64,000 nucleotides of DNA, taken from assembly GCA_024225395.1 (NCBI GenBank), contig JAAEMR010000010.1:1-64000 (forward strand), given 5' to 3'. The stretch is from Gammaproteobacteria bacterium. Its GTDB lineage: Bacteria > Pseudomonadota > Gammaproteobacteria > GCA-001735895. The notes below the pieces were generated by a model. It did no database searches, was not told where the DNA came from, and was given only the letters and a program-made list of their open reading frames with translations. The stretch's first letter is position 1. Each line of letters starts with the position of its first letter. Position numbers and translations under genes: made by a program. Shown in pieces: positions 16,170 through 31,583 of this stretch.

Positions 16170-16192
16170 TTGATTTGGCTCTAGCAAATCAA
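16170..16192 (-). terminator. palindrome at the stop codon of the reductase gene
   Basis: TTGATTTG-GCTCTAG-CAAATCAA, a perfect 8-bp inverted repeat overlapping the stop codon of the convergent reductase gene. It is probably part of a termination region between the convergent genes. Confidence 0.35.
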
Positions 16193-17043
16193 GTATAGAG
16201 AAGTTCTGATAGCCGATTTTCCTGAGTTAGTTTTTTCTTGAGAGTTTCCCAGGTATTTTCAGAACCTGATATTTCAGCCATTTTAGTATTAAAAGTTTTA
16301 GCAACATCTTTCAGTCCAGCGAGATATACATAGGTATTGGGTTGTTGAATTAGTGACCAGAGCTCCTCTGCATTGTCTGCAATGGATCGCTCAAGTCCTT
16401 CGCTTGCTTTGGATAAAGGTCGACTTTCTAATCCACAAAATGCCTGAAAGGTTCTCTCATCATAATAGTTGGCAAGATCATCATTGAGATCGTTCATGTA
16501 CAGTAAGTCCATTCCACTGGTCGCACCATAGAACAGCCGAACATTGCCTTGCCAGCTGCCTTTTTCCCTGTAAATGTTCTGAATGAATACCCGGAAAGGG
16601 GCAATTCCTGTTCCAGTACCTATCATAAGTATATTATCGGTAGTTTCTGGTGGTATTTTGAAGGGGCTTTTATAAGGTCCGGAAAGAGCAATTTTGTCTC
16701 CTGGAGATGCATCACACAGATAGTTCGATGCAATGCCTGGGTATTGTTCTCCGTTCACTTCATCGATATAAAAACACCGTTTAACCAGCAGGGAAAATTC
16801 GGCCACACCATCTGCTGCTGAAACGTTATCATTTGTGATGGAGTAACGGCGCATATAGTGAGTATTGCCAAAATGGTGAGGACCGGGCACGACTACGCCA
16901 ATACTCTGACCTTCCATATAACGAAATGAAGGATCATCTATTTGTAGAGTAATTTGCCTAACTTCGTCAGTTGATTCAGGTGTAATCCTGGCGCTCTCCT
17001 TTACCACAGCTTCAACTGTAGAGTTATGTATACTTTCATTCAT
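16189..17043 (-). CDS. ferredoxin-NADP+ reductase, plant-type FNR family
   Basis: 284 aa. The FAD-binding site RRYSITN (RxYS motif) lies at about residues 65-71, the NADP-binding glycine loop is GTGTGIAPFR (about 142-151), and a C-terminal YVYLAGL precedes the last helices. It has no iron-sulphur domain of its own, so it exchanges electrons with a separate ferredoxin or flavodoxin. The last residue is Thr after Tyr, as in enzymes with an aromatic residue near the flavin. PFOR and the Rnf complex are encoded 3 kb away, so it probably draws on the same ferredoxin pool. Its promoter sequence is a near copy of the one before the nosD-like gene. Confidence 0.87.
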   Translation of the reverse strand: MNESIHNSTVEAVVKESARITPESTDEVRQITLQIDDPSFRYMEGQSIGVVVPGPHHFGNTHYMRRYSITNDNVSAADGVAEFSLLVKRCFYIDEVNGEQYPGIASNYLCDASPGDKIALSGPYKSPFKIPPETTDNILMIGTGTGIAPFRVFIQNIYREKGSWQGNVRLFYGATSGMDLLYMNDLNDDLANYYDERTFQAFCGLESRPLSKASEGLERSIADNAEELWSLIQQPNTYVYLAGLKDVAKTFNTKMAEISGSENTWETLKKKLTQENRLSELLYT

Positions 17044-20279: not shown

Positions 20280-21158
20280 ATGGTTGAATTTGATCTATTG
20301 CAAACCCTGATTACGGTAGCTTTTATGTTTGGGCTGGGTTTTCTGCTGTCTATGGCACTAGTATTGGCAAACCGAAAACTATGGGTTTTTGAAGATCCAC
20401 GTATCGATGAAGTCGAAGAAATGCTGCCTAGTACTAATTGTGGGGCTTGTGGTACGGCCGGATGTAGACCATTTGCTGAAGCCTTAATTGCGGGTGATAT
20501 CAAACCTGCCAGTTGTACTGTCAATTCAACTGAAGCCACTGGTGATATTGCAAACTACCTGGGTGTTGATGCTGGTGATGTCGTTAAACGCGTTGCCAGA
20601 CTGGCCTGTGCCGGTGGTTCAAATGTGTCTAAAAACAAAGCCCACTATTCAGGAATGTCAACATGTCGTGCAGCTGCCCTGGTTAATGGTGGCCCTAAAA
20701 GTTGTAGCTGGGGTTGCATTGGACTGGAAGATTGCGCCAGGGTTTGTGATCAGGATGCCATTAAGATGGATCTGCATGGGTTGCCGGTTGTTGATCCGAG
20801 CAAATGTACGGCCTGCGATGATTGTGTTGATGTCTGTCCTAAAGATCTGTTCTCCCTGCAACCGGTCACTCAAAAACTATGGATAGCCTGTAAAAATCAG
20901 GTACATGGAGATGCTGCTGAAGCTGACTGTGAAGTTGCCTGTAATGCCTGTGAGCGCTGTGTAGTCGATTCTCCCGAGGGACTCATTGTTATGCAGGATA
21001 ATCTGGCGGTGATCAATTATGAAAAAAATCATCTTGCTTCTGCGGTTGCGGCTGAACGCTGTCCAACGGGTGCCATTGTCTGGCTGAATAATGAAATCCC
21101 GGTAAAAGGTATCAAAGCAAAACGAATTGTGCGAAAAGATGCACTTCCCATTCACTAA
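20280..21158 (+). CDS. rnfB: Rnf complex iron-sulphur subunit RnfB
   Basis: 292 aa. An N-terminal membrane anchor (about residues 9-30) precedes a cysteine cluster NCGACGTAGC with a distant fourth Cys (PASC), the RnfB-type [4Fe-4S] site. Further cysteine sets follow in SWGCIGLEDCARVC, KCTACDDCVDVCPKD and CNACERCVVDSPEG, the last group with a downstream CPTGAIVW. It receives electrons from ferredoxin and passes them to the membrane complex. Here it is the first gene of the operon, 17 bp before PFOR, not next to rnfA or rnfC as in enterobacteria. Confidence 0.9.
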   Translation: MVEFDLLQTLITVAFMFGLGFLLSMALVLANRKLWVFEDPRIDEVEEMLPSTNCGACGTAGCRPFAEALIAGDIKPASCTVNSTEATGDIANYLGVDAGDVVKRVARLACAGGSNVSKNKAHYSGMSTCRAAALVNGGPKSCSWGCIGLEDCARVCDQDAIKMDLHGLPVVDPSKCTACDDCVDVCPKDLFSLQPVTQKLWIACKNQVHGDAAEADCEVACNACERCVVDSPEGLIVMQDNLAVINYEKNHLASAVAAERCPTGAIVWLNNEIPVKGIKAKRIVRKDALPIH

Positions 21159-21175
21159 GGTTCTGGATCCTACTC

Positions 21176-24100
21176 ATGAATTTTCTTAAAAAAACACAAG
21201 CTACATTCAAATACCCCGGCATTCGCATGGCGATGGATGGCAATACAGCAGTAATTATGTGTGAACGGGAAGCTTCCGATGCAGCGGGTGCCTACCCGAT
21301 TACACCTTCTACACAAATGGGGGAGTACTGGGCCGAGGAAAAGGCGAAAGGGCATATCAATACATCAGATCGCTCATTGATATTTGTTGAACCTGAATCA
21401 GAACATGCCGCCGCCGCGGTCACAGCAGGAATGGCTATGACTGGACTCAGAGCCACTAACTTTTCATCTGCACAGGGTATTGCTTTTATGCACGAATCGC
21501 TCTACACCGCAGCAGGAAAACGGTTGCCTTATGTACTCAATATTGGTTGTCGGGCAATTACCAAGGCCAGTCTAAATGTTCACTGTGGTCATGATGATTT
21601 TCACTGTATAGACGATACCGGTTTCTTTCAGGTGTTCGCCCGTGATGCACAGGGAGCAGCTGACCTGAATTTAATTTCACGCAAGATTGCTGAACTCTCA
21701 TTAACTCCGGCAGCCGTTGCTCAGGATGGCTTTTTAACCACCCACCTGATTGAACCACTACAGGTTCCAGAGCGTGAATTAATTGCTGAGTTCCTGGGTA
21801 GACCTGATGATCAGATAGACTGTCCAACACCCGCTCAGAAAATGTTATACGGTGAAACCCGCCGGCGAATTCCTGCCATCTGGGATGTAGATAACCCATT
21901 ACAGTCTGGTGTAGTACAAAATCAGGATGCCTATATGCAGACACAGGCTGCACAGCGGCCCTATTTTTATCAGCATATAGCTGAAATTACCGAGCAGGTG
22001 ATGGATGAATACTACCAGCTGACTGGGCGTCAATATCACCGAATCTGCAGTTTTGATATTGAAACTGCTGATTACGTTATCGTCGGTATGGGATCCATGA
22101 TTGTGCAGGCTAAAGGTGTGGCCGATTACCTGAAAAAGACGCGTAAACTAAAAGTAGGCATTCTCGATGTGACTATGTTTCGTCCGTTCCCTGGTGATTT
22201 GATTGGAAAGTTGCTTAAAGGCAAAAAAGGTGTGGTTGTTTTAGAGCGTACCGATCAGCCTTTGGCGGAAGACTTGCCGCTGATGCGTGAGGTAAGAGCA
22301 TCTATTTCAAAATGTATGGAAAACGGCCAGTCTGAAAATTCTAAACCTTATGCTGAGTATGATACCTATAAATCTTTTAAAGATGCTCCACACCTGTACT
22401 CGGGTGCTTTCGGTATGGGTTCACGTGATTTACAACCCGAAGGGTTAATAGGTGCTATAGAGAATATGTTACCCGATGGAGATCAAAAACGATTTTTTTA
22501 CCTGGGTATAGATTTTGTACGTGAAGCGGCCAATCCGAAACAGGAAATTCATTTGCAGAAACTGCTCGAAGCATACCCGGATGTAGGCGATCTTTCAGTG
22601 CATGGTTCAGAAAATCCTAACCTGATGCCGGAAGGTTCAATGACAGTGCGTATGCATTCAGTAGGTGGGTGGGGGGCCATTACTACCGGGAAAAACCTGG
22701 TCATGACATTGTATGATTTACTTGGTTTTGAAATTAAAGCGAATCCCAAGTACGGCTCGGAGAAAAAAGGCCAGCCAACGACTTATTATCTGTCGGTAGC
22801 ACCAACACCAATTCCTCTTAACTGTGAATATCATTATGTGGATGTAGTGCTCAGTCCTGACCCCCATGTTTTTGGTCATTCCAATCCGCTGGCCGGGTTG
22901 AAACATGGAGGAACTTTAATAATTCAGTCTTCCTTACAAACTGAAGCTGAAGTCTGGGCCAGTTTTCCGCGCTGGATGCAGCAACAGGTAATCGAAAATG
23001 ATATTCATATTTTTTATATTGATGGTTTCAAAATAGCGAAAGAAGAAGCGTCTAACGTTGAGTTGCAGTTGAGAATGCAGGGTAATGCCTTTCAGGGAGC
23101 TTTCTTCGCCGGTTCACCGTTAATGGAAATGAATGGTCTGGATGAGAAAAAACTATTTTCATCTATTGAAGCGCAATTACAGGAAAAATTTGGAAGCAAG
23201 GGTAAATCGGTGGTAGAGGATAATCTGCGTATCGTGCGTCGTGGTTTTGATGAAATTCATCGACTGAATATTCGTGATATAGGTGCCAATGTCGTTGAGC
23301 AGGGTCAAAAAATTTCCAACCTGCCAGTTATGCTCAAACAGATACCTCAGGGTGAAGGTGCAATATCTGATGTGCACAGGTTCTGGGAGCAAACCGGTAG
23401 TTTCTATGCTCAGGGTAAGGGGGAAGATAATCTGGCTGACCCTTATCAGGCATTATCTCTGGTGCCTGCTTCCACCGGTGTTTTTCGTGATATGACTTCG
23501 ATACGTTTTGAATATCCCAAGTGGGTAGCTGAAAACTGTACGGCCTGTGGAGATTGTTACAGTATTTGTCCCGATAGTGCTATTCCTGGTCTGGTGAATA
23601 CCATCTCTGAAATTTTTGCCACGGTTATCGATAAAATTGAACTGGGTGGCATGCCTACCGTGTATTTGCGCAGGGAATCTCGACAGGTTGAAAAACGTTT
23701 ACGCCAACTGCTTAACGAGCAGGGTGATACAGCCAATGTCCGTGAAACACTGGATCGAGCTATTCTGGAAGTTGTTAAAGAATCGTCGACTGAAGGAGCA
23801 GCAAGAACCACGCTGGAAAAGGAATTTGCATTATTTCTGGATAAGCTTGGCACTTTTGAGTTTGCCGTCACCAAGCCGTACTGGAATATTAAAGAAAAGA
23901 AGAGCCCTAATTCCGGTGGCTTATTTTCCATTACGATCAATCCATTTACCTGTAAAGGCTGTATGGAATGTATCGATGTCTGTGAAGATGATGCCCTGTT
24001 GATAAAAGATCAGGATAACGCATCGATTGAGCGTATGCGTGATGACTGGAAGTTCTGGCTGGATTTGCCGACTACGCACGAAAGTTTCAGTCGTATCGAT

Positions 24101-26101
24101 GATATGGATGAAAAAATAGGCGCTTTGGAAACCATGCTGCTGGATAAAGACTCTTATAACTCGTTGAACTGTGGTGATGGTGCCTGCCTGGGTTGTGGTG
24201 AAAAAACCGTTATACATTTGTTTACCGGTACTGTGACCACATTAATGCAACCGCGTGTTAAACAGCAACTGGCTAAACTGGATGATCTGATCGCTAAACT
24301 GGAAAATCATATTCGACTCAAGCTGACTGCAGGAGTTGATCTGAGTAACTTGTCGGCTCTTAAAAATGCGGCACAAAATGGTGATGATGATCTGACGCTG
24401 GCTGGATTATCCGACAGTATTGACCCTGACCATGAGAACACGCTGGTTGATAAGGAATGGCTGAAAAATATCAGTAACATGCTGGATAAGTTACGTGATT
24501 TACACTGGCGTTATCGGGAAGGACCTACCAGAAATGGCCGTGCTGAGATGGGTATAGTAAATGCAACCGGTTGTACTTCGGTGTGGGGTTCGACTTATCC
24601 TTATAATCCTTATCCATTCCCGTGGACCAGTAATTTATTTCAGGATAGCCCGTCTATGGCGATGGGGTTGTTTGAAGGTCACATGGCAAAAATGGCTGAA
24701 GGTTTCAAGGTTATCCGCAAGGCAGAACTGGAACTGGCTGGAAAATATAACCCTGCTGAACATGATCTGTTTTTTAGTAAATTTAACTGGAATCAATTTA
24801 CTGATGAGGAGTTTGCGCTTTGCCCGCCGGTCGTGTCCATTGGTGGTGACGGTGCGATGTATGATATTGGATTCCAGAACCTGTCACGTGCGCTGGCCTC
24901 GGGCATGCCGGTTAAAGTGCTGGTGCTAGATACCCAGGTTTACTCCAATACTGGAGGACAAGCCTGTACTTCGGGATTTATTGGTCAGGTAGCGGATATG
25001 AGTCCGTATGGTAAAGACATGAAAGGTAAGGAAGAAGCGCGTAAGGAAATGGGTTTGATTGGAATAGCGCATCGTACTTCTTATATTTTACAGGGTTCAC
25101 CCAGTAACACGACACATTTGATCGAAGGCTTCATCGATGGACTGAACAGTCGCCGTCCAGCGATGTTCAATATTTACTCAAGCTGTCAGCCAGAACACGG
25201 CATTGCCGATGATGCAACTTATCGTCAGTCTAAGCTGGTTGTTGAATCACGCGGTTATCCATTATTGAAGTTTGATCCCGATGCAGGTGAAACACTGCAG
25301 GAATGCATAGATCTGGATGGCAACCCTGCGCTTTCTGATGACTGGCCTGAGTATACACTAAACTATGAAGACGAAAATGGTCAGCAAGGTAGCATGCAGC
25401 TGCCAGTCACCTTCGCAGACTTTGCTGCCAGTGAAGGCCGATTCCGTAAACATTTTCGTAAAGCTCCGGCAGAAATCTGGGGTGATGAAATGATTCCTTT
25501 TGATGAGTTTTTACAGATGGAGGAAGATGAGCGTGAAGATAATTATCCTTATATCTGGGGAGTCGATGATAAAAATCGTCTGATCAGAATATTATGCTCA
25601 CAGGAAATTGTTAATTCGGCACAGGAGCGTCTGCAGTACTGGCACCAGCTAAAAGGACTGGCAGGAGAAATGGATAAGGTAGATGTCAATGGTCTCATCG
25701 AGCAAACCAAGGCGGATATGGCATCTCGCCTGAGTTCGACGCTATTGTCACTATCTGCATCCGGTGAAACCAGTGTTTTAGCCCAGGCTGTTTCTACCGA
25801 TGGTCATTCAGTTTCACCTGCTGTTGCAGCTGGTGGCACTGCCAGTGCAGGTTTCGAACCTGTGTGGATAGAAACTCCTGAGTGCACTGCCTGTGATGAA
25901 TGCACCGATATTGCACCGGGTATTTTTGCCTATAATTCTGACAAGCTGGCAGAAGTCATTAATCCAACGGGGGGCAAATTTAAAGACGTAGTACGTGCTG
26001 CTGAAAAATGTACAGCAGGCTGTCTGCATCCGGGTACCCCCTGGGATATGAATGAAAAAGATGTGGAAAAACTGATCAAACGGGCTGAGAAATATCAGTA
26101 A
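21176..26101 (+). CDS. nifJ: pyruvate:ferredoxin (flavodoxin) oxidoreductase with extra C-terminal ferredoxin domain
   Basis: 1641 aa, about 450 longer than the usual NifJ-type enzyme. The N-terminal 2-oxoacid domain has AYPITPSTQMGEYWAE (about 39-54). Two cluster motifs follow, NCTACGDCYSICP (about 786) and FTCKGCMECIDVC (about 924), then CLGCGEK (about 1004). The thiamine-diphosphate site is GGDGAMYDIGFQN (about 1223), and SNTGGQACTSG follows. A charged helical stretch of ~115 residues interrupts the usual path between CLGCGEK and the substrate domain. The last ~75 residues form another ferredoxin-like domain with ECTACDECTDIAPGIF and KCTAGC. It converts pyruvate and CoA to acetyl-CoA, CO2 and reduced ferredoxin, or runs in reverse. 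Its place inside the rnf operon suggests direct coupling. Confidence 0.88.
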   Translation: MNFLKKTQATFKYPGIRMAMDGNTAVIMCEREASDAAGAYPITPSTQMGEYWAEEKAKGHINTSDRSLIFVEPESEHAAAAVTAGMAMTGLRATNFSSAQGIAFMHESLYTAAGKRLPYVLNIGCRAITKASLNVHCGHDDFHCIDDTGFFQVFARDAQGAADLNLISRKIAELSLTPAAVAQDGFLTTHLIEPLQVPERELIAEFLGRPDDQIDCPTPAQKMLYGETRRRIPAIWDVDNPLQSGVVQNQDAYMQTQAAQRPYFYQHIAEITEQVMDEYYQLTGRQYHRICSFDIETADYVIVGMGSMIVQAKGVADYLKKTRKLKVGILDVTMFRPFPGDLIGKLLKGKKGVVVLERTDQPLAEDLPLMREVRASISKCMENGQSENSKPYAEYDTYKSFKDAPHLYSGAFGMGSRDLQPEGLIGAIENMLPDGDQKRFFYLGIDFVREAANPKQEIHLQKLLEAYPDVGDLSVHGSENPNLMPEGSMTVRMHSVGGWGAITTGKNLVMTLYDLLGFEIKANPKYGSEKKGQPTTYYLSVAPTPIPLNCEYHYVDVVLSPDPHVFGHSNPLAGLKHGGTLIIQSSLQTEAEVWASFPRWMQQQVIENDIHIFYIDGFKIAKEEASNVELQLRMQGNAFQGAFFAGSPLMEMNGLDEKKLFSSIEAQLQEKFGSKGKSVVEDNLRIVRRGFDEIHRLNIRDIGANVVEQGQKISNLPVMLKQIPQGEGAISDVHRFWEQTGSFYAQGKGEDNLADPYQALSLVPASTGVFRDMTSIRFEYPKWVAENCTACGDCYSICPDSAIPGLVNTISEIFATVIDKIELGGMPTVYLRRESRQVEKRLRQLLNEQGDTANVRETLDRAILEVVKESSTEGAARTTLEKEFALFLDKLGTFEFAVTKPYWNIKEKKSPNSGGLFSITINPFTCKGCMECIDVCEDDALLIKDQDNASIERMRDDWKFWLDLPTTHESFSRIDDMDEKIGALETMLLDKDSYNSLNCGDGACLGCGEKTVIHLFTGTVTTLMQPRVKQQLAKLDDLIAKLENHIRLKLTAGVDLSNLSALKNAAQNGDDDLTLAGLSDSIDPDHENTLVDKEWLKNISNMLDKLRDLHWRYREGPTRNGRAEMGIVNATGCTSVWGSTYPYNPYPFPWTSNLFQDSPSMAMGLFEGHMAKMAEGFKVIRKAELELAGKYNPAEHDLFFSKFNWNQFTDEEFALCPPVVSIGGDGAMYDIGFQNLSRALASGMPVKVLVLDTQVYSNTGGQACTSGFIGQVADMSPYGKDMKGKEEARKEMGLIGIAHRTSYILQGSPSNTTHLIEGFIDGLNSRRPAMFNIYSSCQPEHGIADDATYRQSKLVVESRGYPLLKFDPDAGETLQECIDLDGNPALSDDWPEYTLNYEDENGQQGSMQLPVTFADFAASEGRFRKHFRKAPAEIWGDEMIPFDEFLQMEEDEREDNYPYIWGVDDKNRLIRILCSQEIVNSAQERLQYWHQLKGLAGEMDKVDVNGLIEQTKADMASRLSSTLLSLSASGETSVLAQAVSTDGHSVSPAVAAGGTASAGFEPVWIETPECTACDECTDIAPGIFAYNSDKLAEVINPTGGKFKDVVRAAEKCTAGCLHPGTPWDMNEKDVEKLIKRAEKYQ

Positions 26102-26144
26102 TGAATTTTTTCTTTATATTTTTTATTAATCAGGATGACTTGTG

Positions 26145-27485
26145 ATGGGATTCTTTTCGGCCATCACTAGAAGCTCGTTTTCGCATGGTTTACATCCTCC
26201 GTCGCATAAAGCGGAAACGGCGGGTATTCCGATAAAACGAATGCCTTTTGCACCATTATTGATTATTCCCCTGAGTCAGCATATTGGAGCGCCCTCACGT
26301 TGCATTGTGAATAAAGGTGACGAAGTGGTGCGAGGGCAACCCATTGCCGATGCAAGTGCTGCTTTATCAGTACCCATTCATGCTCCTGCTACCGGGAGAA
26401 TCAAGTCCATTGAGCAAGTGACAGGAGCTCGTGGCACTATGGAAACAGCTATTTTATTGCAGGTTTATGACGCATCGAGTCAGCAAGTGTTATGGCGGAA
26501 TCCTGTCGATCCCGCCAGTTTAAGCAGTGAGCAAATTTTACAGGCCATTCAGGATCTGGGGCTGGTTGGATTAGGCGGTGCAGCATTCCCGTCACACTTT
26601 AAGCAGAGAATTCCAGATGATAAAATGGTTGATACGCTGGTTATCAATGGCAGTGAGTGTGAACCCTATCTGACCTGTGACCACCGTATTATGCTGGAGC
26701 GTCCCGAGCATTTAATAGCAGGTATAAAGCTCGCCATGCGTGCTACAAAAACCAGGCGCGCCATCATTGGTATCGAAGATAACAAGATGGATGCCGTTAA
26801 TGTATTGCAAAAACACCTGCTAAATGAAGAGCATATTTCCGTGCAGGCGGTTAAAACAAAATACCCGCAGGGTTCTGAAAAAATGCTGATTAAATCACTG
26901 CTTAATCGTGAAGTACCAGCGGGTGGTATTCCACTCGATATTGGTGTTGTGGTGAATAATGTTCAAACGCTTAGCTCTCTTGGACAACTACTGCCAGTTG
27001 GTGAAGGGTTGATAGAAAGAGTCATTACCGTGACTGGGCCGGGTATAAAACATCCTGGCAATTACCGGGTACCTGTTGGAACGCCGATTGGCTTTATTCT
27101 GCAGCAGGTTGGATACAGCGGGGGAGTGAATGAATTCATTCTGGGTGGTCCGATGATGGGTCCTGCCGTTTCTTCGCTGGAGACGCCTATCACTAAAAGT
27201 TGTTCGGGGTTGCTGGTACTCAATGAACCGGGTATACAGGATGAAACCCGTATGATCTGGCCCTGTATAAAGTGCGGGCGTTGTGTCAGTGCTTGTCCCA
27301 TGCATCTCAATCCGGCCCAGTTAGGGCTGCTTGCCTCGGCAGCAGAGTATCAGCAAATGGCTGATGACTATAATTTAAACCACTGTTTTGAATGTGGATG
27401 TTGCTCCTATATTTGTCCATCAAATATTCCACTGGTGCAATATTTTCGCATAGCCAAAGCGATCAACCGGGAGTTGGCTGCATGA
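26145..27485 (+). CDS. rnfC: Rnf complex NADH-binding subunit RnfC
   Basis: 446 aa from ATG 26145 (AGGAT upstream; a GTG three bases earlier is possible). The N terminus has the family start FSHGLHPPSHK, then a lipoyl-like HIGAPSRCIVNKGDEVVRGQ. The nucleotide/FMN site is DLGLVGLGGAAFPSHFK and INGSECEPYLTCDHR, as in NuoF/RnfC proteins. Two [4Fe-4S] motifs close the protein: CIKCGRCVSACP and CFECGCCSYICP. It is the NADH site of the complex and overlaps rnfD by 4 bp (ATGA). Confidence 0.93.
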   Translation: MGFFSAITRSSFSHGLHPPSHKAETAGIPIKRMPFAPLLIIPLSQHIGAPSRCIVNKGDEVVRGQPIADASAALSVPIHAPATGRIKSIEQVTGARGTMETAILLQVYDASSQQVLWRNPVDPASLSSEQILQAIQDLGLVGLGGAAFPSHFKQRIPDDKMVDTLVINGSECEPYLTCDHRIMLERPEHLIAGIKLAMRATKTRRAIIGIEDNKMDAVNVLQKHLLNEEHISVQAVKTKYPQGSEKMLIKSLLNREVPAGGIPLDIGVVVNNVQTLSSLGQLLPVGEGLIERVITVTGPGIKHPGNYRVPVGTPIGFILQQVGYSGGVNEFILGGPMMGPAVSSLETPITKSCSGLLVLNEPGIQDETRMIWPCIKCGRCVSACPMHLNPAQLGLLASAAEYQQMADDYNLNHCFECGCCSYICPSNIPLVQYFRIAKAINRELAA

Positions 27486-28525
27486 GTAAAAAGCCACAGG
27501 TTGAATTAAGAACAACTCCACATCTGCATGCTCCGCAGGATGTTGTAGTAATCATGCGTAATGTTGTGTTTGCAATACTGCCAATAGCTGCCTGGTCAAT
27601 CTGGCTATTTGGTTTAAGCGCTCTTATGTTACTGGTGATAGTAACTGCTAGCTGCCTGATTACGGAAAGACTGTTTACGATGGCGAACGGACAGGTCAAT
27701 ACACTGGGTGACTGGTCAGCCATTATCACTGGCTTATTACTGGCGTTAACTTTACCACCGGCATTTCCTTTATGGATGGGAGTCGTTGCCGGATTCATAG
27801 CCATTTCGATGGGCAAGGTGATGTTCGGGGGGCTGGGCATGAATATTTTTAATCCTGCACTGGTGGGTCGGGCTTTTGTACAGGCTGCTTTTCCTGTGGC
27901 GATCACCAGCTGGACTCCCGCATTATTTGAAGAGCGCTTCAGCCAGTTTATTCCATCAACCTTTACCGCTCCATTCATGATTCCAGTAACACTTGATAAC
28001 TGGAATTTACAGTATGCTGTAGATGGTTTTACCGGAGCCACACCTTTGGGTTTACAAAAATTTGATGGTATTAGCACGCCTGTACTGGATTTGTTTGTGG
28101 GAAATTCTGCCGGCTCCAGTGGGGAAACTTCGGCATTGATTATTATGTGTTGCGGGTTGTATCTTGCTATAAGAAACATGCTGGACTGGCGAATCCCTTT
28201 TTATATAATGCTAGGCACGCTATTAACTGCTGGAGGGTTTTATTACATTAATCCTCAGCAGTATCCCGAACCTCTGTTTATGTTATTTTCCGGTGGTCTA
28301 ATGTTAGGAGCCTGGTTTATGGCTACTGATATGGTTGGTTCCCCGGTTACCCCTTTGGGGGTTGTTATCTACGGCTTATTTATTGGTTTTTTAACCGTAA
28401 TTATCCGGTTATTTGGCGGGCTGTCAGAAGGTGTTATGTATGCCATATTACTGGCAAATGCTGCGACACCTTTAATAGATCAATATACTACACCTAAAGT
28501 ATTTGGTCACAGGAAGCAGTCATGA
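27482..28525 (+). CDS. rnfD: Rnf complex membrane subunit RnfD
   Basis: 347 aa from ATG 27482, overlapping the rnfC stop (ATGA); the earlier start at 27392 lies inside rnfC and is rejected. It is a polytopic membrane protein with the covalent-FMN motif DGFTGATPLG, where the threonine carries FMN through a phosphoester bond in RnfD/NqrB. GMNIFNPALVGRAF is a family hallmark. It takes part in electron flow coupled to Na+ or H+ movement. Confidence 0.93.
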   Translation: MSKKPQVELRTTPHLHAPQDVVVIMRNVVFAILPIAAWSIWLFGLSALMLLVIVTASCLITERLFTMANGQVNTLGDWSAIITGLLLALTLPPAFPLWMGVVAGFIAISMGKVMFGGLGMNIFNPALVGRAFVQAAFPVAITSWTPALFEERFSQFIPSTFTAPFMIPVTLDNWNLQYAVDGFTGATPLGLQKFDGISTPVLDLFVGNSAGSSGETSALIIMCCGLYLAIRNMLDWRIPFYIMLGTLLTAGGFYYINPQQYPEPLFMLFSGGLMLGAWFMATDMVGSPVTPLGVVIYGLFIGFLTVIIRLFGGLSEGVMYAILLANAATPLIDQYTTPKVFGHRKQS

Positions 28526-29223
28526 ATAATCCTGAAGCCAACGACGAAGTTAGCACTACAAAGGAACATCAGGCCGATACACCGTCGTTAAGAATGATAT
28601 CTGTTTTAACGGGGATAGCCATGCTATCTGGTTTTCTGGTAGTTTTTACCTCGCAACTAACCGCGCCCGCTATTGCCGAAAATCAACGTATCGCGATAGA
28701 GCAGGCTGTCAGTAAAGTTATTCCCAACAGTGTCAGTCACCGTGAGTTTGCGTTGGTGGATGGACAGCTTGGAGTAGTTGAAAAAGGCAGTAACCAGAAA
28801 ATTGTGTATGCCGGTTACGATAGTGACGGGGAGTTTCTGGGTATAGCGTCAAGGGCTTCGGCCCAGGGTTATGCCGGGATGATTTATTTACTCTATGGCT
28901 ATGACCCTTTTTGTCAATGTATCCGTGGTATTAAAGTGCTTAAAATGACTGAAACACCAGGACTTGGAGATAAAATAATTACCGATAAAAAGTTTCAGAA
29001 AAATTTTGAGCAGCTGGATGTTCAACTGAATAAAAAACACAGTGCCCTTAAAAATAAAATTACTATGGTTAAACAGGGTTCTAAAAAAAATGACTGGGAA
29101 ATTGATGCAATTTCAGGGGCGAGTATTTCATCAAATGCTGTAGGAAAGGCACTGAATCAGTCGGCACAGGTATTACTACCAGAACTTTATCCGTTAATCG
29201 AACAGCTAAAGCAGGCAGAGTGA
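28522..29223 (+). CDS. rnfG: Rnf complex FMN subunit RnfG
   Basis: 233 aa, overlapping rnfD by 4 bp. One N-terminal membrane helix (about 25-45) is followed by a periplasmic FMN-binding domain. The flavinylation motif reads DAISGASISS, with serine where RnfG/NqrC proteins usually have threonine (SGAT). ApbE-type transferases are known to act on Thr or Ser in such motifs, so it is probably still flavinylated. Two adjacent cysteines in CQCIRGIK are unusual-looking. No apbE gene is seen in the window. Confidence 0.9.
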   Translation: MNNPEANDEVSTTKEHQADTPSLRMISVLTGIAMLSGFLVVFTSQLTAPAIAENQRIAIEQAVSKVIPNSVSHREFALVDGQLGVVEKGSNQKIVYAGYDSDGEFLGIASRASAQGYAGMIYLLYGYDPFCQCIRGIKVLKMTETPGLGDKIITDKKFQKNFEQLDVQLNKKHSALKNKITMVKQGSKKNDWEIDAISGASISSNAVGKALNQSAQVLLPELYPLIEQLKQAE

Positions 29224-29873
29224 TGAGCAGGATTAGAGATAACAGCATAAGCTGGGAAACATTTAACGAAGGTCTGTGGAAAGAAAATCCTGTATTTGTC
29301 ATGTTACTGGGTATGTGCCCGGTACTGGCTGTTACCAATTCGGCCATGAATGCTCTGGCCATGGGAATAGCAACAGCCTTTGTGCTGGTAGCTTCAAGCA
29401 CACTGGTTTCATTACTCAGTAAATACATCCCGAAGCAGGTGAGAATTGCTACCTACATTATTATTATCGCAACTTTTGTGACTATTGTTGATTATGTAAT
29501 CCAGGCTATTTCACTGGATTTATACAATGCACTGGGAGCTTTTATTCAATTGATTGTGGTTAATTGCATGATTTTAGGACGGGCTGAATCTTATGCTTCC
29601 AAATACCGTCCGTTGAAATCTATTGTCAATGCACTGGGTATGAGTGCTGGTTTTACGATTGCGCTCCTTTCCCTTGGTGTTGTGCGTGAAATTCTAGGTG
29701 CGGGTAGTCTGTTTGGTATTCAACTTTTTGGCGATAACTTCCAGCCCTGGGTCGTTATGGTGCTTCCACCCGGGGGGTTTCTGGTACTGGGTGCCTGGCT
29801 ATTACTGTTTGACTGGGTAAACCAACGCCAGCAAAAAAAGGCTGAAAAACAGGAAGCTCATCATGCAAGCTGA
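29223..29873 (+). CDS. rnfE: Rnf complex membrane subunit RnfE
   Basis: 216 aa from ATG 29223, which overlaps the rnfG stop by one base. It has six predicted helices. The two family cysteines are present, in LLGMCPVLAVTNSAMNAL (about C32) and VVNCMILGRAES. In Rnf/NQR complexes the equivalent cysteines, together with those of RnfA, bind an iron-sulphur centre inside the membrane between the two subunits. Confidence 0.92.
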   Translation: MSRIRDNSISWETFNEGLWKENPVFVMLLGMCPVLAVTNSAMNALAMGIATAFVLVASSTLVSLLSKYIPKQVRIATYIIIIATFVTIVDYVIQAISLDLYNALGAFIQLIVVNCMILGRAESYASKYRPLKSIVNALGMSAGFTIALLSLGVVREILGAGSLFGIQLFGDNFQPWVVMVLPPGGFLVLGAWLLLFDWVNQRQQKKAEKQEAHHAS

Positions 29874-30450
29874 TTCATTAAGTTTTATATTTTTAAACAC
29901 GGTATTGGCAAATAATTTTGTGCTGGCTATGTTCCTGGGGCTTTGCCCGTTTCTGGGTGTTTCCGGCAAACTGAGTATGGCAGTGCCGATGGGTATAGCC
30001 ACACTGTTTGTTATGCTGGTTAGCTCCATCTCTGCGTATGCTGTTAACATAATACTGGTCGCACTGGATATAGAGTTTCTCAGGTTAATTGCCTACATTG
30101 CCATTATTGCAAGTGCCGTACAACTGGTCGAAATGACGTTGAAAAAATACAGTCCCACTCTATTTAGATCATTAGGTATATTCCTGCCATTAATAACAAC
30201 TAACTGTGCCATTTTAGGGTTAGCGCTTTTTCAAACTTTCTACCAGTATAATTTTGCGCAGTCGGTTACCTATGCTTTTGGAGCAGGAACTGGTTTTATT
30301 CTCGCGATTACATTAATGGCTGGTCTTAGAGAAAAACTGGTGTTATCAAAATTGCCCAGTGTGACTCAGGGTGCCGCGTTAAGTTTAATGTTAGGAGGCC
30401 TGTTGTCCCTGGCTTTTATGGGCTTTGCCGGTCTAGGGAGTGTGCACTGA
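29863..30450 (+). CDS. rnfA: Rnf complex membrane subunit RnfA
   Basis: 195 aa, overlapping rnfE by 11 bp. The family sequences VLANNFVLAMFLGLCPFLGVS (split here as VLANNFVLAM and FLGLCPFLGVS, about C28) and TTNCAILGLALFQ carry the two cysteines that pair with those of RnfE. Its stop overlaps the start of the small cysteine protein that follows (TGATG). Confidence 0.93.
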   Translation: MQADSLSFIFLNTVLANNFVLAMFLGLCPFLGVSGKLSMAVPMGIATLFVMLVSSISAYAVNIILVALDIEFLRLIAYIAIIASAVQLVEMTLKKYSPTLFRSLGIFLPLITTNCAILGLALFQTFYQYNFAQSVTYAFGAGTGFILAITLMAGLREKLVLSKLPSVTQGAALSLMLGGLLSLAFMGFAGLGSVH

Positions 30451-30626
30451 TGCTGCAATATTTAATTGCTATGTTAACTGTTCCTGCCTTACTTATTGGC
30501 TGGCTGATTATTCAACATATTAGTCGTAAGTATTCTACGTCACATCCTGAGTTCGGTCCTTTCAAAGAAGAAGGTGCCGGCTGTGGAAAAAACTGTGGAT
30601 GTAAGGGCAATAACTGTAAAAAATAG
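30450..30626 (+). CDS. 58-aa membrane-anchored four-cysteine protein, NqrM-like candidate Rnf assembly factor
   Basis: ATG 30450 overlaps the rnfA stop by one base. One N-terminal membrane helix (residues ~4-22) is followed by a short basic segment and a cysteine-rich tail GCGKNCGCKGNNCKK, pattern C-x3-C-x-C-x4-C (C45, C49, C51, C56). Small size, single helix and four cysteines recall NqrM (DUF539), which is needed to mature Na+-NQR and is thought to bring iron to the cysteines of NqrD/NqrE, the homologues of RnfE/RnfA. I infer the same job for this Rnf complex. The sequence itself is not clearly NqrM. Translational coupling to rnfA makes a real gene very likely. Confidence 0.7.
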   Translation: MLQYLIAMLTVPALLIGWLIIQHISRKYSTSHPEFGPFKEEGAGCGKNCGCKGNNCKK

Positions 30627-30920: not shown

Positions 30921-31583
30921 ATGAAAAAAATAAACCAGTCCATCATGTTACTTACCCTGTTAGCCATTTTTATTCCTGAAGTATCGGCTAATCCCCCACT
31001 GGCATTTGAGGGAAGAAAGTTATTTGTTTCCTATTGTCAGCTATGTCATGGAACTGAAGGAAAGGGAGATGGTCCCCTGGCAAAAGCCATGAAAATTACT
31101 CCAGCAGACCTGACTATTACAGTCCGCGCCAGGAGTGATACCATTCTTAAAAAAATTATCACTGGTAGAGGGAAACAAACCATTACCGGTCGTGATCGCC
31201 ATAATATAATCAGCGATGCAATGCCCGAGTGGAAGGATATTTTTGACGATAATCAAATTAACGCGCTCATTGCCTATTTACGTTTTATGGGTAATAGAAA
31301 ACATAATTTGATGGGTGACCCTGAAATCGGCCAGCAGCTTTATTTGAAATATTGTCAGGTCTGTCATGGTGTTGAGGGTGATGGTGATGGCATCATGACT
31401 AATCTTATTGGAATTATGCCGATGGATCATACCAACCCTAATGAAACCAATAGTATAGATAATCAGCAACTGGTCAGCAGTATTCTTGATGGAAAAGGTC
31501 GATTCATGCCTGCCTGGAAAGGTATTCTCAGTGATACAGATATTGAGGCTTTGGTCAGTTACATAAGGTTATTATCGCACTAA
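30921..31583 (+). CDS. periplasmic di-haem cytochrome c
   Basis: 220 aa. A signal peptide ends near VSA (residue 23), then two similar class-I cytochrome domains follow, each with one haem site: CQLCH (C39, C42, H43) and CQVCH (C145, C148, H149). Methionines in AMPEWK and RFMPAWK are the likely sixth ligands. GGAGG lies 9 bp before the ATG. It would carry electrons in the periplasm, for example to a terminal oxidase or reductase. It follows the Rnf operon by ~290 bp in the same direction but probably has its own promoter. The tandem arrangement resembles cytochrome c4, but the domains differ. Confidence 0.87.
   Translation: MKKINQSIMLLTLLAIFIPEVSANPPLAFEGRKLFVSYCQLCHGTEGKGDGPLAKAMKITPADLTITVRARSDTILKKIITGRGKQTITGRDRHNIISDAMPEWKDIFDDNQINALIAYLRFMGNRKHNLMGDPEIGQQLYLKYCQVCHGVEGDGDGIMTNLIGIMPMDHTNPNETNSIDNQQLVSSILDGKGRFMPAWKGILSDTDIEALVSYIRLLSH

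Follow-up and report, generated by a model that had tools for sequence, protein, structure and literature searches.

Which function does the small gene at the end of an rnf operon fulfil, and could its product be for Rnf what NqrM is for the Na+-NQR? This question is raised by a gene for a 58-residue protein, hereafter called X, which is located directly behind rnfA in a window of 64,000 nucleotides, the whole stretch of gammaproteobacterial DNA analysed here. The job proposed for NqrM in the Na+-NQR is the handover of iron to the cysteines of the intramembrane centre, and we know of no other factor implicated in insertion of the Nqr cluster. Insertion of the [2Fe-2S] cluster at the membrane site of NQR seems to need NqrM, whose gene is found together with apbE in the Vibrio nqr operon (PMC12174285).

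Gene X and its operon

X (MLQYLIAMLTVPALLIGWLIIQHISRKYSTSHPEFGPFKEEGAGCGKNCGCKGNNCKK) is encoded on the forward strand at 30450..30626, where its ATG shares one base with the rnfA stop codon TGA (30448–30450) in the sequence TGATG, and a GGGAG-type ribosome site lies upstream of the start. Hydropathy predicts a single N-terminal membrane helix at about residues 4–22 (30459..30515), followed by a tail in which cysteines 45, 49, 51 and 56 (30582..30617) form an exact C-x3-C-x-C-x4-C motif. The coupling to rnfA, the single helix and the cysteine motif were all recovered exactly as the preliminary description had given them. The open reading frame is confirmed as a real gene, since homologues at the same position beside rnfA in many genomes set it apart from a chance ORF. 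When the window is compared with two congeners, pN amounts to 0.14–0.20 and pS, which is nearly saturated, to 0.73–0.85; as pN lies far below pS between species, X is under purifying selection. Pfam and NCBIfam profile searches gave no family match for the X of the window.

X is the last gene of an operon with the order rnfB-nifJ-rnfC-D-G-E-A-X, all on the forward strand. It opens with rnfB (20280..21158), which scores above the TIGR01944 cut-off, and with RnfB encoded there, a reading of X as a stub in its place was ruled out. A gene for a nifJ-type pyruvate:ferredoxin oxidoreductase of 1641 residues with an extra C-terminal ferredoxin domain (21176..26101) comes next, followed by rnfC (26142..27485), rnfD (27482..28525), rnfG (28522..29223), rnfE (29220..29873; cysteines C33 and C116) and rnfA (29863..30450), whose cluster-ligand cysteines C28 and C115 are invariant in 14 relatives. 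On the same strand, a gene for a two-domain cytochrome c (30921–31583) follows X at a distance of about 295 bases; no such gene was detected beside X in the relatives examined. A second rnf operon, of the canonical type, lies on another contig of the same genome, and the four PF02508 proteins of this genome all fall within the two rnf operons. PF04400, the NqrM family, has no match anywhere in the genome, and a separate RseC is encoded as well.

Distribution of X among Rnf lineages

Eight related genomes, the window's own counted, carry X, a ninth and weak match being left out of this number, and a search of 369 sampled gammaproteobacterial genomes with an X alignment returned 13 true matches, all directly behind an rnfA that belongs to an rnfCDGEA operon. 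One additional match (L053), near which no rnf gene was found, was treated as chance and is not counted among the 13. For loci chosen independently of X, 84,980 species genomes were scanned for RnfA, which gave 80 named loci, and X was called behind rnfA wherever a short ORF encoded one helix and three or more cysteines in the tail. Such an ORF is located at most 100 bases behind rnfA in 28 loci, and approximately 410–460 bases downstream in L071 and L073. Within one RnfA lineage, X follows rnfA in 30 of the 34 operons that are uncut, versus none of 43 other rnf operons, which comprise the canonical rnfABCDGE, the clostridial rnfCDGEAB and the ignavibacterial types; these counts ignore shared ancestry, and the association recurs over many phyla. 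As a background, about 5 of some 1430 further long-ORF ends in these loci satisfy this rule. When rnfA genes of this lineage were located independently as second copies, X was present behind 8 of 10. Homologues beside other rnf operons, whose absence would have spoken against the preliminary description, do exist, and a generality for Rnf is not supported, X being confined to one lineage.

In a tree of 98 RnfA/NqrE proteins, the 39 X-bearing rows all fall inside one RnfA clade of 46 rows with an SH-aLRT of 100, and X was found in none of the 44 Rnf rows outside this clade. The clade comprises nine phyla (Pseudomonadota, Bacteroidota, Kiritimatiellota, Calditrichota, Spirochaetota, Planctomycetota, Gemmatimonadota, Acidobacteriota and Myxococcota), which argues that X partners an Rnf lineage that moved between phyla and not a bacterial group. 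The partnership of X with one Rnf lineage is well supported. Of the four clade operons that lack X, L062 and L095 belong to genomes with X at a further operon of the lineage, RseC is present instead in the genome of L070 (G435), and the contig of L089 measures 3.3 kb and comes from a gammaproteobacterium in which RseC is likewise encoded; many of the genomes are fragmentary MAGs, in which a missing X or RseC may be missing sequence. Two Calditrichota and one myxococcal genome have X at only one of two clade rnf operons, so that X is probably able to act in trans. Thiothrix caldifontis (L055, genome G406) apparently harbours four pump operons, one of the X lineage, two for canonical Rnf and one for Nqr with NqrM.

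Comparison with NqrM and RseC

All 45 relatives of X contain more lysine and arginine residues after the helix than before it, and by this positive-inside count the tail is predicted to be cytoplasmic. Exactly four tail cysteines at widely varying spacing are found in 36 of the 45, as in NqrM, which is more in keeping with a flexible donor of metal than with a fixed redox cluster. The whole set ranges from three to six cysteines in more than 20 spacing patterns. The 45 relatives were assigned to no family in Pfam or NCBIfam, and the X profile matched no PDB chain, known Rnf and Nqr subunits included.

In architecture X and NqrM (PF04400, DUF539) are much alike, as both comprise about 60 residues with one N-terminal helix and a cytoplasmic four-cysteine tail, often with a CxC, and both genes lie in a pump operon near apbE, their products being partners of the homologous RnfA/E–NqrD/E core. 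This operon is rnf for X and nqr for the NqrM family, however, and the four cysteines, though arranged in order in both proteins, differ in spacing and context. The GSCGG-x(n)-C-x-C-x3-C signature of NqrM is replaced by GCG-x2-C-x-C-x4-C in X, and the linker of gammaproteobacterial X, W/Q...HPE-x-G...EEG-x-GCG, is likewise different from NqrM. In the profile search against DUF539 that had been suggested for checking the resemblance, none of the 45 relatives matched at E≤1, and Thiothrix caldifontis encodes a true NqrM separately from the X behind its rnfA; X is therefore NqrM-like at most by analogy or remote descent, and of the earlier label only the architecture stands, not the family membership.

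Remote descent would imply that X is a true, diverged NqrM homologue, with the same family swapped between the sister pumps, which would be compatible with a role as assembly factor. Besides the shared architecture, there are short NqrM forms, RGSCGGMNNCACASPC among them, that come close to X, and profile–profile comparison of the broad X set with NqrM gave 30.3 versus 17.5±3.5 for permuted NqrM columns, the broad X alignment reaching a probability of 76–88 % and doing better than all 60 controls in which helix and tail were each permuted internally. The core X alignment, however, failed to beat controls permuted in the tail only, and the tails alone reached a probability of 1.7 %. The profile comparison thus points both ways; with PF04400 matching none of the relatives, we consider homology rather unlikely.

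Two variations were noted on the Nqr side. Two planctomycetes (L082 and L084) encode an ApbE–NqrM fusion (L153, 205–1665, and L154), in which the ApbE domain is followed by the NqrM helix and the GSCGG tail. The Bacteroidota Nqr operons L166, L167, L168, L169 and L171 have no NqrM-like gene behind nqrF, PF04400 gave no match in the genomes of these loci, and neither NqrM- nor X-like genes were found behind nqrF of Bacteroidota and planctomycetes. The Nqr of Bacteroidota may need another factor, or X.

RseC (PF04246) resembles X in being a membrane protein with a cysteine motif that tracks one Rnf lineage, although it belongs to the other lineage, is about 150 residues long, has two helices and carries its motif, C-x2-C-x5-C, on the N-terminal side. 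X, with one helix instead of two, gave no Pfam match to the RseC_MucC domain, and some of the X tails repeat the cysteine spacing of RseC (L063, L066, L080 and L161), e.g. CLTCALKDNC and CGFCSMSDDC. Of 50 genomes examined for both, 28 have an RnfA of the other lineage, with a TIGR01943 score of 257–299 bits, and RseC was found in 26 of these, versus 1 of the 22 that have only the X lineage (Fisher p=8e-11, ignoring kinship); it was also found in 23 of 23 further genomes of the other Rnf lineage. The one RseC holder in the group of 22, G435, is at the same time the sole genome of this group without an X found, so that RseC and X show a complementary pattern. This rule has exceptions and other possible causes, as gammaproteobacterial rseC is also part of the rpoE-rse cluster and some acetogens manage without the gene. 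Seven acetogens have RNF genes without rseC; in Clostridium ljungdahlii, Rnf-dependent growth requires RseC, and deletion of rseC abolished autotrophy and lowered the rnf transcripts. The protein was read there as a transcription regulator, with direct participation in the complex regarded as possible (PMC9124969). In Ignavibacteria and Omnitrophota, rseC is located within a few kb of rnfA (genomes of L083, L086, L088, L096 and others), the order at L086 being rnfCDGEA-apbE-rnfB-rseC.

Proposed role of X in Rnf assembly

Judging from sequence and gene context, we hold with moderate confidence that X serves one Rnf lineage as a dedicated assembly (maturation) factor, with a tail that most likely donates iron or a nascent cluster to RnfA and RnfE. 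The protein would be anchored in the membrane by its one helix with the cysteine tail in the cytoplasm, where the tail would most likely hold ferrous iron or a nascent cluster and pass it to the RnfA and RnfE cysteines which bear the intramembrane [2Fe-2S] centre, as proposed for NqrM. An assembly role is suggested indirectly by the position of X beside rnfA, whose product ligates this cluster, the cluster cysteines of RnfA and RnfE being conserved. It is further suggested by the gene order rnfCDGEA-X-apbE in Gemmatimonadota and Acidobacteriota, in which X is directly followed by another maturation gene of pump operons, that of the flavin transferase ApbE, which attaches FMN and is unrelated to X as a protein. 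The variable cysteine spacing, unlike that of a structural redox centre, points in the same direction, as does the finding that one X seems to serve two operons in three genomes. From this we infer that X would bind metal, transfer it and be required for Rnf activity. The assembly-factor idea of the preliminary description thus gained strength from the tie to a lineage, the adjacency to apbE and the sharing of one X by two operons, but it applies to one lineage only. Against the idea speaks that Rnf occurs without X in the canonical, clostridial and ignavibacterial arrangements and, within the clade itself, in G435 at least, and that neither NqrM nor any other named family matches the X of the window. 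Proteins with such cysteine tails could alternatively bind zinc or perform thiol chemistry.

An alternative that we regard as unlikely is a small structural or redox subunit of Rnf, with an Fe–S or rubredoxin-like centre between RnfB or ferredoxin and the RnfA/E cluster. The tight coupling to rnfA and the strict lineage restriction would fit such a subunit, and the solved Rnf structures found are compatible with it as they are apparently not of the X lineage, the best PDB match of RnfA coming from an Rnf complex whose subunits are of the canonical type. A conserved redox centre is, however, hard to reconcile with the number and spacing of the cysteines, some clade operons do without X while the sister operon in the same genome has it, and among PDB chains, Rnf and Nqr subunits included, the X profile found no counterpart. 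Still less probable is that X, in parallel to RseC, acts as a regulator responding to redox state or iron, or in quality control; the complementarity of the two proteins and the loss of autotrophy and lowering of rnf transcripts upon rseC deletion (PMC9124969) speak for this, yet X has neither a DNA-binding nor a second domain and stands last in its operon, and the RseC work itself allowed for direct participation of RseC in the complex. The FeoB-associated cysteine-rich membrane proteins (PF12669), named for their linkage to feoB and presumed to handle iron, share with X the small size, the one helix and the cysteine-rich tail, and 7 of the 45 relatives match this family weakly with a best E of 4.9e-5. 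As even the best relative stays below the cut-off (23.9 versus 27 bits), the X of the window does not match PF12669 and the class-wide X matches lie behind rnfA with one stray excepted, an iron protein of this type that is unrelated to Rnf assembly appears highly improbable; 143 gammaproteobacterial genomes contained no member of the family above the cut-off.

Coming back to X as an assembly factor, it is conceivable, albeit tentative, that each Rnf/Nqr lineage has its own membrane iron or cluster donor with a cysteine motif for the shared [2Fe-2S] site, in which case NqrM would serve proteobacterial Nqr, RseC the canonical and clostridial Rnf, and X the rnfCDGEA lineage. RseC, which is treated as a regulator, may then do the job of X for the other Rnf lineage, and lineage-specific donors would, if true, also give RseC a molecular function. 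The X family, for which Pfam and NCBIfam hold no model, tracks one Rnf lineage in nine phyla and thereby offers a direct genetic handle on insertion of the unusual [2Fe-2S] cluster that lies within the membrane between RnfA and RnfE, and production of X-lineage Rnf in other hosts may fail without X.

The surroundings of X also recur as a module, which consists of rnfB, a pyruvate:ferredoxin oxidoreductase with an extra ferredoxin domain, rnfCDGEA, X and a flavin NAD(P) reductase and is found in the window (20280–30626) and at L012, L045, L055, L057, L062 and L068. A flavin reductase of the ferredoxin-NADP reductase type is encoded on the reverse strand of the window (16189..17043), and its homologue lies directly behind X in several relatives. 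Seen in gammaproteobacteria, Bacteroidota, Kiritimatiellota and Calditrichota, the module apparently constitutes an ion-pumping unit from pyruvate to NAD(P)H.
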